Below are positions 7,472 through 11,946 of a stretch of 13,512 bases of DNA, one piece after another; position 1 is the stretch's first letter; every line of letters starts with the position of its first letter. Origin of the DNA: Nitrososphaerales archaeon TH5888 (lineage in GTDB: Archaea > Thermoproteota > Nitrososphaeria > Nitrososphaerales > Nitrososphaeraceae). Both the position numbers and the translations under genes were made by a program. The stretch spans positions 1 to 13,512 of the forward strand of contig JAATVN010000129.1 in the NCBI GenBank assembly GCA_014523595.1. The letters run 5' to 3'. The notes beneath the pieces were generated by a model. The model had not been told where the DNA came from. It searched no databases and saw nothing but the letters and a program-made list of their open reading frames with translations.

Positions 7472-8689
7472 ATGAGGGTCAAAATTCCTACAATTCATGG
7501 TAATCACATAGGCCTTAATGCGATGATAATTTTAGAAGATGGTTCAACGTATCGAGGCACAGGTTTTGGCTATCCAAAGACAGTCGGCGGTGAATTTGTT
7601 TTTAATACGGGAATGGTAGGTTACACGGAGACTTTAACTGATCCATCGTATAGAGGGCAAATCTTGTGTTTGACTTATCCGCTTATTGGGAACTATGGAG
7701 TGCCGAGCAACTCCATTACTGATAGCTATGGATTGCCAAAATATTTTGAATCTGATAACATTCAAGTTTCTGGATTGATTGTTCACGAGCTGTCTACTGT
7801 AGCTAATCATAGAGAATGCCACAAGACTTTAGATCAATGGTTATATGATGAAAAAATACCAGGAATTAGCGGAATTGACACACGTGACTTAACCAAGAAA
7901 ATTAGAATAAAAGGAGTAATGAAAGGTGCTCTCTCAATTTCGGAAAAACAAATAAACACAAAAGAACTATTGAATACTATCAAGAGGACCAAATATGATG
8001 GATTTAACTTCATGTCTCAGGTATCCGTTGACAAAACAGTTGAATATGGAGATCCAAAATTAGAACCGATAGTGTTGATTGATACGGGCACAAAATATAG
8101 CATTATTCGTAATATTTTACGGATGGGATATAGGGTTATTCGAGTTCCATGGGATATGTCGTTTAATAAGATTATTTCTTATAAACCCAAGGGTATTATA
8201 ATAAGTAACGGTCCAGGGGATCCTAAAATGTGCAATAGTACAATAGATACCGTCAATAAATTGTTTGATTCAACATTACCAATATTAGGAATATGCTTAG
8301 GAAACCAAATTATCGCACTTGCTGCAGGGGGCGATACATACAAGTTGAAATTTGGACACAGAGGTCAAAATAAAGGATGTACTGAACTAAACACCAATCA
8401 AACCTTCATTACTACTCAGAATCATGGATATGGGGTAAAATCAAACACGCTTAATAAAACTGGATTCAAAGCTTGGTATATTAATTCTGATGACAATACT
8501 ATTGAAGGCATCAAACATGAATCGAAACCTATAATAGCAGTACAGTTTCATCCAGAAGCGTCTCCCGGACCATATGATTGTTTGCACATATTCGACAGTT
8601 TTAAAGCTCTTGTTGAACAAAATGGATCTAACGAAAAGTCTATTCATAGTGATAGAGTAAATGGAGGGGGAAAATTTTCCAAAGAATGA
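7472..8689 (+). CDS. carA: CarA, carbamoyl-phosphate synthetase small (glutaminase) subunit
   Basis: Hydrolyses glutamine and channels ammonia to CarB for carbamoyl phosphate, the precursor of pyrimidines and arginine. The N-terminal CPSase domain shows LEDGSTYRGTGFG, VVFNTGMVGY-like VFNTGMVGYTETLTDPSYRG and YPLIGNYGVP. GISGIDTRDLTKKIR precedes the class I amidotransferase domain. The triad is Cys275 (GICLGNQ), His360 and Glu362 (QFHPEASPGP); ISNGPGDP and FGHRGQN also match. Length is 405 residues. The ATG at 7472 fits the TATA-like box. ATG 7523 would align better with shorter relatives, so the first 17 residues are uncertain. The 3' end overlaps the carB start by 29 nt, so carA and carB share one transcript. 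Confidence 0.96.
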   Translation: MRVKIPTIHGNHIGLNAMIILEDGSTYRGTGFGYPKTVGGEFVFNTGMVGYTETLTDPSYRGQILCLTYPLIGNYGVPSNSITDSYGLPKYFESDNIQVSGLIVHELSTVANHRECHKTLDQWLYDEKIPGISGIDTRDLTKKIRIKGVMKGALSISEKQINTKELLNTIKRTKYDGFNFMSQVSVDKTVEYGDPKLEPIVLIDTGTKYSIIRNILRMGYRVIRVPWDMSFNKIISYKPKGIIISNGPGDPKMCNSTIDTVNKLFDSTLPILGICLGNQIIALAAGGDTYKLKFGHRGQNKGCTELNTNQTFITTQNHGYGVKSNTLNKTGFKAWYINSDDNTIEGIKHESKPIIAVQFHPEASPGPYDCLHIFDSFKALVEQNGSNEKSIHSDRVNGGGKFSKE

Positions 8690-11600
8690 AACCATAAAGA
8701 AAGCAATAGTATTGGGAAGCGGAGCAATAAAGATCGGAGAAGCGGGCGAAAGTCAGAAATTCTGACCGCCAATTTGACTATTCCGGTTCACAATGCCTCA
8801 AAGCTTTGTCCGAAGAAGGAGTTAAGACCGTACTCGTAAATCCCAATATAGCAACCATCCAAACAGATACTAGATTTGCGAATAAGGTATATTTGTTACC
8901 AGTAAACGGATATTACATAAACCAAATAATAGAGAAGGAACTTCCTGATTCAATAATGTTAGGTTTTGGTGGCCAGACCGCATTAAATTGTGGAGTATCA
9001 TTACATGATGAAGGAATTCTAGATAAATATAAAATACAAGTATTGGGCACTCCTATAAATAGCATAAAGATTACTGAAGATAGACAACAATTTAAAACCG
9101 CAATGATAAAGAGTAACGTTCCTGTGCTAGAGAGTTCTCCAGCATATAATTTAAGAGAGGCACTGGATGTTGCAGATAAAATAGGGTATCCGGTGATAAT
9201 CAGGGTTGCATACACTCTTGGCGGCAAAGGAGGAGGAGTTGCGCATAATGAATATGAACTGCAAGAGATTGTTCAGCGAGGACTTTCATTGAGTCTAGTA
9301 AATCAGGTATTAATTGAAAAATACATCGGAAGTTGGAAACAAATAGAATATGAAATGATGAGGGATTACGCTGGTAATAGCATCGCGATTTGCAATATGG
9401 AAAATGTTCTAGGAATGAGAGTTCATACAGGGGACAATATTGTTATCGCACCGTCACAGACAATCAATAATGAAGAATATCATAGATTACGTTCCGCTGC
9501 AATTAAAGCAGTAGAATATTGCGGCATTGTCGGAGAATGCAATATCCAATTTGGCTTGGATCCGCAAAGTGAATCATATTGCGCAATTGAAATAAATGCT
9601 AGACTCTCGAGATCATCGGCTCTAGCCAGCAAGGCAACTGGATATCCCTTGGCTTATATGGCAGCAAAAATGGGACTTGGTTACTCCCTCACAGAACTAG
9701 TAAATAGCATAACTAAGGCTACAACGGCTTGCTTTGAACCTTCATTAGATTATGTAGTCTTAAAAATGCCTAGATGGGACTTCAGGAAGTTTGAATTGGT
9801 TAACAGAAGGATTGGCACGAGTATGAAGTCAGTGGGGGAGGTTATGGCAATTGGGAGAACATTTGAAGAAGTCTTGCAAAAAGCAATCAGAATGACCGAT
9901 ACGGGAAAAATGGGCCTTGTTGGAAATGAACAAGATATGAAGGAAGAATTAGAATTAGTTGAACAAAAATTGTTGTATCCAAGTGATGAAATTTTATTTG
10001 ATATTGTTAAGGCTATGCGATTGGGAATTCCCATATCCAGAATAAGTAAACTTTCAACAATAGATTCATGGTTCTTGGAAAAAATCAAAAATATTGTGGA
10101 CATGTATGATAAATTGCATGGGGTCGATGTGTCTGATATTTCTGAGGGTTTATTGAGAGATGCAAAAAAGTACGGATTTTCAGATTTACAAATAGGAAAA
10201 TGTTTGGGTATAAAAGAAATAAGTGCCAGAAAATTGAGGCAAAAACTTGGTATTAATCCAGTTGTAAAACAAGTAGATACGTTAGCTGCAGAATGGCCTG
10301 CAAAGACAAATTATCTGTATTTAACTTATGGAGGAGATAAAGATGATATTGTTTTTAGGAAAGAGAAAAATTCTGTAATGGTACTTGGGGCAGGACCATA
10401 CAGAATCGGCAGTAGTGTAGAATTTGATTGGGGTACGGTCAACATGGTTTGGGGCCTAAAAAATAATGGCATAAAATCAGTATCAGTTATTAATTGCAAT
10501 CCTGAAACGGTTTCTACTGACTATGATATCTCGGACAGACTATATTTTGAGGAATTATCATTAGAACGAATTTTAGATATATATGAAAAGGAACGTCCTA
10601 AGGGAATAGTTACATGTGTTGGAGGGCAGACCGCAAACAATCTTGTACCTAAATTAGGAGAACTAAATGTACGTATTATTGGTACTGATAGTATCCATAC
10701 TGATATGGCAGAAAACAGAGAAAAGTTCAGTAGATTGCTAGATTCATTGAATATAAAGCAGCCTCCTTGGAATAAGTTTACGGATCTAAATGGAGCAAAA
10801 ACATTTTCTCAAAATGTAGGATTCCCTGTTTTAGTAAGGCCATCTTATGTGTTAAGTGGGGCGGCGATGAAAGTAATATGGAATGACGAACAATTAGAGC
10901 GATACATCAATGAGGCTGCTCAAGTAAGCCCCGAGTATCCAATTGTGATTAGCAAATTCTTTCAGGATTCAGCCGAGGTTGAAGTAGACGCAGTATGTAA
11001 TGGAAAGGATGTCATTATAGGCGCACTAATTGAGCACATTGATAACGCAGGTATTCATTCTGGAGATGCTATGATGTGTATACCTCCATGGAGATTGAAC
11101 AGACAAACCATGAACACAATAGTAGATTATTCAAATATGATAGCTAGAAAATTGGAAGTGAAAGGTCCGCTTAATATCCAGTACTTGGTCAAGGATGATG
11201 AGGTATATGTTATCGAGGCAAATGTCAGAGCATCAAGGACTACCCCCTTTGTATCAAAAATAGTTGGAATTAATTTAATTTCGTTAGCCGCCAAAGCGAT
11301 AACTAATGGTAAATTACCAGACGGTCTTAATGAACCTTGGTTAAAAATTAGTGGCTTTGGAATAAAAGTCCCACAGTTTTCATTTATGCAATTGGAAGGT
11401 TCAGACATAGTTTTGGGTGTTGAAATGCAGTCAACAGGAGAAGTTGCTTGTCATGGTAACAGTTTTTATGATGCTTTGTCAAAAGCCTATGAAGCAGCTG
11501 GATATAATTTACCACTGTCAGGATCGGCATTGATAACAATAGGAGGACAAAAAAACAAAGAAAAAATGCTTTCTCCGATCTCGCTCATAAACTCGATGAA

Positions 11601-11946
11601 ATTTAATATTATGGCAACAGAACATACAGCTGAATTTATCAAGAACAACATCACTACAAATGTGCAGGAAGTACACAAGATTAGCGAGCCGACAAGAAAG
11701 CCAAATATTGCAGATCTCTTATATGACAAAAAAATAGATTTCATAATAAATATTCCATCTACATCTACCATCGAAAAGTACGTAGGTATGCTAGATGATG
11801 AGTATCAAATCAGAAGAAAAGCTGTAGAAATGGGAATTCCAGTACTTACCACAGTGGAGTCAGCAATTTCATTCATACATTGTTTAGAGTGGAGAAATAA
11901 TAATAAACCGTCAATAAGCCCATTATCCAAGTATCATATTAACTAA
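8661..11946 (+). CDS. carB: CarB, carbamoyl-phosphate synthetase large subunit, split by a 22-nt BHB intron (join 8661-8750, 8773-11946)
   Basis: Makes carbamoyl phosphate from bicarbonate, CarA-derived ammonia and two ATP. Exon 1 (ATG 8661, 30 codons) encodes the first nucleotide-binding loop, IVLGSGAIKIGEAGE. Exon 2 resumes FDYSGSQCLKALSEEG, the exact continuation known in CarB. Without splicing the frame ends at TGA 8763-8765, and a naive reading would begin at Leu42 (TTG 8806), losing the loop. The spliced protein has 1087 residues, close to the usual ~1070. The first ATP-grasp half includes LGGKGGG and CAIEINARLSRSSALASKATG. The second half starts near residue 563 (VMVLGAGPYRIGSSVEFDWG) with CNPETVSTDYD, VRPSYVLSG and EANVRASRT. 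The C-terminal MGS-like regulatory domain spans about 940-1080. Its start lies inside carA (29-nt overlap), with no clear Shine-Dalgarno. Everything downstream of the intron is intact, so this does not look like a pseudogene. Confidence 0.93.
8751..8772 (+). other. Archaeal bulge-helix-bulge (BHB) pre-mRNA intron in carB, 22 nt
   Basis: Seen in sequence: central helix GGCG (8745-8748) pairs perfectly with CGCC (8767-8770). Each strand of it is followed by a 3-nt bulge, AAA (8749-8751) and AAT (8771-8773). Inside, GTCAGA (8752-8757) pairs with TCTGAC (8761-8766) around a 3-nt loop. A weaker outer stem joins 8736-8744 to 8774-8784, with G-U pairs, single bulged bases and one mismatch. Known rule: the archaeal splicing endonuclease cuts each bulge after its second base, here 8750/8751 and 8772/8773. 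Those cuts remove 22 nt and give ...GGC GAA TTT GAC TAT..., restoring Gly-Glu-Phe-Asp-Tyr of CarB exactly. Inference: spliced by the EndA-type endonuclease and joined by RtcB-type ligase, as for tRNA introns. A chance frameshifting insertion is the alternative but would not be expected to meet the 3-4-3 geometry and the frame together. Confidence 0.87.

Follow-up and report, generated by a model that had tools for sequence, protein, structure and literature searches.

The described case of a bulge-helix-bulge (BHB) intron in a protein-coding gene is that of cbf5 in Desulfurococcales and Sulfolobales (Yokobori 2009, PMC2738675; here and below, sources with PMC numbers are cited for the accessible parts of their text). 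The cbf5 intron is small, has a BHB-like fold with relaxed features and predicted cuts between the second and third bulge residues, shows patchy loss and leads to frequent mis-annotation (PMC2738675). All this is shared by the insertion described here, which sits in another gene, carB, and in another lineage, the class Nitrososphaeria; for Nitrosopumilus maritimus and Cenarchaeum symbiosum, the accessible part of PMC2738675 lists no cbf5 intron. An EndA-cut mRNA intron, as predicted for carB, is also the 46-nt BHB intron in the 5′ UTR of Haloferax HVO_1309 (PMC7714728), reported in a 2020 paper that names cbf5 as the only other archaeal mRNA BHB intron in its accessible text. The HVO_1309 intron lies in an untranslated region, was found by circRNA-seq and was cut in vitro (PMC7714728), and splicing of cbf5 has cDNA support (PMC2738675), whereas the carB insert interrupts codons and is known from DNA alone. 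Archaeal tRNA introns, with BHB or relaxed BHB motifs, share the motif and the predicted enzymes with carB (PMC6379350), and elements of the rudivirus SIRV1, which are viral, have been cited as putative introns in other protein-coding genes (PMC2738675). Unlike in the tRNA introns, the host RNA of the carB insert is an mRNA, and both exon strands of its helix are coding. For SIRV1, Peng in 2004 is said to have described 12-bp elements. Titles and abstract openings of the open literature held no report of a carB intron or of a protein-gene intron in the class Nitrososphaeria, in agreement with the sequence-only reading of this DNA, which knew of no BHB intron described for carB of this lineage. 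No carB intron is named in the accessible text of PMC6379350, PMC12397907, PMC13149111, PMC6125680, PMC3655853, PMC3491384, PMC12817955 or PMC13252144. As far as its sequence allows us to judge, the predicted carB intron works like that of cbf5, i.e., it is of a known broad kind in a new gene and a new lineage.

The window, by which we mean the whole stretch of 13,512 nt that was analysed, comes from contig C98 of a fragmented MAG with a completeness of 59.9%. The eight named loci nearest to its carB exon 2 show 91-95% identity over the best segment, and most of them are titled Nitrososphaeraceae, Nitrososphaerales or Thaumarchaeota archaeon. The features are as follows.

7472..8689, + strand: carA, carbamoyl-phosphate synthase small subunit (ORF; Pfam CPSase_sm_chain, GATase)
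8661..8750, + strand: carB exon 1, 30 codons, ATG start assumed (sequence; homology to intronless relatives)
8751..8772, + strand: predicted BHB intron, 22 nt (sequence, fold, homology gap, covariation in relatives)
8773..11946, + strand: carB exon 2, 1057 codons plus stop (ORF; Pfam CarB domains)
8734..8743, + strand: outer stem, 5′ strand, in exon 1 (nine counted pairs with 8776-8786; all nine in 86 of 88 distinct sequences)
8776..8786, + strand: outer stem, 3′ strand, in exon 2 (pairing kept in relatives; codon constraint)
8745..8748, + strand: central helix, exon strand GGCG (RNAfold; conservation)
8767..8770, + strand: central helix, intron strand CGCC (RNAfold; conservation)
8749..8751, + strand: 5′ bulge AAA, predicted cut between 8750 and 8751 (RNAfold; cut rule of PMC2738675)
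8771..8773, + strand: 3′ bulge AAU, predicted cut between 8772 and 8773 (RNAfold; cut rule of PMC2738675)
8752..8766, + strand: inner hairpin GUCAGA-AAU-UCUGAC with a 3-nt loop (RNAfold; covariation)

Exon 1 (8661-8750) reads MEGENFPKNETIKKAIVLGSGAIKIGEAGE and exon 2, from 8773 on, begins with FDYSGSQCLKAL. The 3′ end of carA overlaps carB exon 1 by 29 nt, and translation of carB may be coupled to that of carA, ahead of the intron. The carB frame is broken by the 22-nt insert between GEAGE and FDYSG, and reading the exon-1 frame onward leads to a stop inside the insert (GES QKF stop). The interruption at 8751-8772 stands in sequence and coordinates as the sequence-only reading had given it. 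We consider it highly probable that this segment is a BHB intron, predicted to be excised by EndA, with RtcB as the likely ligase of the exons, so that CarB would be restored, and that it is old and was lost repeatedly. Under the predicted splicing, EndA would cut the carB pre-mRNA between 8750 and 8751 and between 8772 and 8773, RtcB would likely join Gly-Glu of exon 1 to Phe-Asp-Tyr of exon 2, and CarB would be translated from the spliced message only. The predicted tryptic peptide across the spliced junction of the window is IGEAGEFDYSGSQCLK.

RNAfold returned this motif as the MFE structure of positions 8731-8790 (-21.4 kcal/mol; z -2.99), with equally low energy in 2 of 200 shuffles, and thereby agreed with the GGCG/CGCC central helix, the bulges and the 6-bp inner hairpin described earlier. 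The outer stem is likewise present and, reaching from 8732 to 8788 in the MFE structure, longer than had been stated. The term canonical, which the sequence-only reading had used, fits one side of the motif: the 4-bp central helix, the 3-nt 5′ bulge and the intron-side hairpin have the canonical form, and at the 3′ splice site the MFE structure leaves 4 nt unpaired, so that the strict form, a 3-nt 3′ bulge flush with the outer helix, is lacking. The modelled motif thus has a canonical intron side and a relaxed exon side. Because relaxed BHB forms have been described for archaeal introns (PMC6379350), the missing flush bulge denies the word canonical, not the word BHB. Restoration of Gly-Glu/Phe-Asp-Tyr holds as well, whereas homology does not by itself fix the cut, as had been supposed: A and AA repeat at the borders of the insert and three cut registers are therefore permitted, from which BHB geometry, with cuts between the second and third bulge residues (PMC2738675), picks the one given above. 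Such geometry is not rarer than chance in the window (3 equally tight motifs on the + strand, where 40 dinucleotide shuffles gave 2.9 on average), and was therefore dropped as an argument; the weight of the motif lies in its position at the homology gap and, decisively, in its occurrence in relatives. A group I or II self-splicing intron was also considered and rejected, given inserts of 20-40 nt and no Rfam match in the window.

The comparison covered 111 carB loci from the window itself, relatives and named contigs; 110 were scored, one (L053) being left out at a contig edge. An insert at the same codon junction was present in 82 of the 110, among which the window's gene counts twice (L001, L002), and the other 28 read GEAGEFDYSG without interruption. 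Most of these 28 carry names such as Nitrosopumilus, Nitrosopelagicus, Nitrosopumilaceae or marine group I, and a species may occur in both sets. For further comparison, copies distinct over 60-nt and 90-nt flanks were collected, leaving out those without the exon-1 codon pattern. In all 113 such copies the frame is broken by a shift or a stop. The inserts measure 20-40 nt, with 20-nt versions in 13 of the 113, so that 22 nt, which had been taken as close to the smallest size that can fold, is not the minimum.

That the insert stays in the mRNA and ribosomes get past the hairpin by translational bypass or programmed frameshifting is very unlikely in our judgement. Such events are usually marked by a hairpin where the frame breaks, and the published cbf5 introns were themselves formerly taken for frameshifts (PMC2738675). 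Insert lengths in our set, however, fall into all three classes modulo 3 (48, 39 and 26 of the 113 copies), and selection has kept pairs between the two exons as well as between exon and intron, in BHB register. Bypass as in gene 60 requires matched take-off and landing triplets; the take-off triplet is repeated at the end of the insert in none of the 113 copies. A split or truncated gene, with CarB beginning in exon 2 and exon 1 a mere leftover, deserves next to no credence: mechanical gene calling does yield such proteins (TTG start at 8806; P0002-P0004), but in 86 of the 113 copies the first 25 codons of exon 2 offer no ATG, GTG or TTG, exon 1 is in frame and alike in relatives right up to the junction, and a leftover would not maintain a covarying exon-exon stem. 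The fragmented state of the source MAG might suggest an assembly or sequencing artefact, which we regard as refuted, since the same fold is written in different letters in many independent assemblies, single-contig ones included.

Conservation of the predicted intron fold was quantified in an alignment of 52 sequences, in which 97.6% of 936 pairing cells can pair, compared with 93.5% in shuffles, and partners slid by 1-3 columns pair in just 18-47%. Cells with a double change numbered 39 versus 11.1 in shuffles, none of 500 shuffles reaching as many. Two of the five covariation measures stay at shuffle level in this alignment, i.e., the number of pairs with a double change (4 versus 3.8) and the number of pair types (20 versus 18.5). 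A wider set was drawn from 184 intron loci, which include repeated genomes and are not a genome count; it holds 88 distinct sequences with full 20-nt flanks and 77 distinct introns, copies without the exon-1 codon pattern being left out. Here, all 88 sequences keep hairpin pairs 1-3, and pair 4 is formed in 84 of them, pair 5 in 64. All four central pairs are possible in 76 sequences; the remaining 12 keep three, with G-A at the first central pair. All nine outer, exon-exon pairs are found in 86. One genome (G040) carries the double change to exon GGUG and intron CACC in the central helix, and one further sequence has a wobble there (GGUG/CGCC). The fold is kept, as these alignments indicate, by compensatory change. 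Relatives with the insertion and without a conserved fold would have spoken against the sequence-only reading; across 88 distinct insertions the fold is kept, and the same insertion with compensatory helix changes, by which that reading had proposed to check itself, was found in carB of relatives.

The exon strands of the helix have left their mark on codon choice. Among named contigs (50 intron-bearing, 28 intronless; L034 and L053 left out), all nine exon-exon pairs are possible in 50/50 intron-bearing versus 4/28 intronless genes; in the wider set, 5 of 39 distinct intronless flanks have all nine. At single stem codons the third base is close to fixed in genes with the intron and not in those without: C in Ile (50/50 intron-bearing versus 5/28 intronless), A in Gly (49/50 versus 4/28), C in Gly (50/50 versus 1/28), C in Asp (47/50 versus 1/28) and C in Ser (41/50 versus 0/28). 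Control codons vary more, on average, with the intron than without it (entropy 1.14 versus 0.90), and hence this fixation does not reflect general conservation. Averaged across the 12 stem codons, third-base entropy is not much lower with the intron (0.56) than without it (0.71); the codon signal comes from individual positions, and counts of this kind are inflated by shared descent. Two genomes document exact absence of the intron together with drifted stem codons. In G347 (L252, L215), exon 2 shares 93% identity with its counterpart in the intron-bearing G044, and within its genus a stop precedes exon 2 in frame in 15 of 16 genomes with a match, G347 having none. G182 (L251, L225), from the window's own family, has an exactly intronless carB among intron-bearing near relatives.

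The model R1 matched 241 of 400 genomes of the class Nitrososphaeria, of which 205 score as intron-bearing (E below 1e-10, counted from rows) and 36 match weakly; weak matches with a listed position span 40 nt and represent carB without the insert. The predicted intron is hence not peculiar to the source organism. Intron-scoring genomes belong to eight families (f1, f3, f5, f9, f10, f11, f12, f20). No insert was present in the carB genes read from f2, f4, f6, f8, f14, f15, f17, f18 and f21, nor in those of single genomes within f9, f10 and f12; carB of G048 (f13) lay outside the scored set. In a phylum sample (398 genomes, 77 matches), all 21 matches outside the class were carB without the insert, as seen with strict filters and a model built inside the class, with which distant intron-bearing genes could be missed. 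On a FastTree tree of 129 exon-2 proteins (81 with intron, 48 without; identical rows and loci covering less than 500 aa of exon 2 left out, L053 labelled intron by default), presence changes state 12 times versus 38.9 times with shuffled labels, and at least nine of the 12 changes are forced by well-supported (starred) branches. Such counts do not distinguish gain from loss; site and fold are the same throughout, however, which argues for one old gain and many losses. For G087, from outside the window's order, either descent or transfer could account for the intron. The carB of L072 (JAIQZO010000065.1), titled Candidatus Anammoxibacter (Planctomycetota), groups inside Nitrosopumilus in the tree, and the mismatch between title and gene is probably a binning error.

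Several loci show further irregularities. In the MAG G005, carB is spread over two contigs (C45 from base 41; C151:5788-5964), both intron-bearing and ending close to the exon junction, which probably reflects a split gene or overlapping contig ends. The shortened carB frames of L269 and L270 were rejected as second introns, since these loci run into contig ends there. In L258, from the single-contig genome G142, the carB frame breaks near residue 670 of exon 2 and continues in another frame; no BHB motif was seen there, and a simple small frameshift (error or decay) was preferred to a second intron. Further BHB introns were sought in one genome, G044 (1.60 of 1.62 Mb), with first thresholds that missed carB itself and relaxed ones that returned 17 candidates, one of them carB. 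The remaining 16 were judged by eye, and several of them resemble boundaries of neighbouring genes, which lends weak support to carB being the only such intron in G044. As a control, tRNA introns of G044 were searched with ARAGORN in 60 of 80 stretches, and none was clearly resolved.

Most of the genomes sampled for them encode the enzymes that the predicted splicing would employ. Of 21 genomes, 19 have EndA (PF01974), 17 of these as two matches (in G003 one match lies below the cut-off), and 19 have RtcB. The window's own MAG, 60% complete, yielded one EndA fragment at a contig edge and neither RtcB nor a second EndA gene. The first (alpha) EndA type, taken from G006, aligns to A. pernix 3P1Z_B (1.3e-44) over a range covering GPGIDHAP, the catalytic His of which is Ala in 3AJV; the second type is more distant. 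The G006 protein has Lys at the position of A. pernix K44 in the specificity loop (K44 and H133A of A. pernix EndA are named in PMC6379350). Judged by sequence, this set fits a broad-specificity (alpha-beta)2 enzyme, and a two-subunit EndA with the specificity-loop Lys would be expected to accept the relaxed exon side. As the sequence displays the mark of an endonuclease and ligation is inferred, the BHB motif might mainly turn carB off through EndA cleavage, with no productive ligation. This is extremely unlikely, since an unspliced message cannot yield CarB in any of the 113 copies, the BHB register restores the frame exactly and RtcB is encoded in 19 of the 21 genomes.

If the predicted splicing is true, carB would be the second protein-coding case, old and scoring in about half of the sampled genomes of the class, and EndA-dependent mRNA splicing would not be a peculiarity of one gene in hyperthermophiles. 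The carB set, with its 12 changes on the tree, offers a natural experiment on intron gain and loss. The class Nitrososphaeria, to which the ammonia oxidizers belong, includes cultured members. A wider interpretation is possible and is offered with more doubt than confidence: an old mRNA intron, spread through the class, would make EndA and RtcB the on-switch of CarB, selection would act on the coding parts of both exons as a splicing helix, and the many intronless relatives would record exact intron loss, several times over, in a prokaryotic protein gene. If true, it would tie carbamoyl-phosphate synthesis (arginine, pyrimidines) to the tRNA-splicing machinery.

Among the CarB proteins listed by three protein searches (best 120 matches each), no clear spliced product was present. 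Nine proteins among the matches listed reach 90% identity or more with an intron-bearing locus, and in seven of them the junction is not intact; the two intact ones, P0021 and P0061, are at least as close to an intronless locus. P0061, 96.4% identical to the intron-bearing L253, was accordingly rejected as proof of splicing, as it matches the intronless G347 equally. Two JGI proteins also have an intact junction: P0005 (208 aa) is 89.6% identical to the intron-bearing L221 and 73.3% to the nearest intronless locus, and P0144 (144 aa) is 83.2% identical to an intron-bearing versus 79.6% to an intronless locus. Either spliced transcripts or intronless strains would explain these two. The predicted intron accounts for N-terminally wrong CarB proteins in databases: P0001, P0048, P0060 and P0072 begin with out-of-frame residues from the insert, and P0060 carries the NCBI name CarB.
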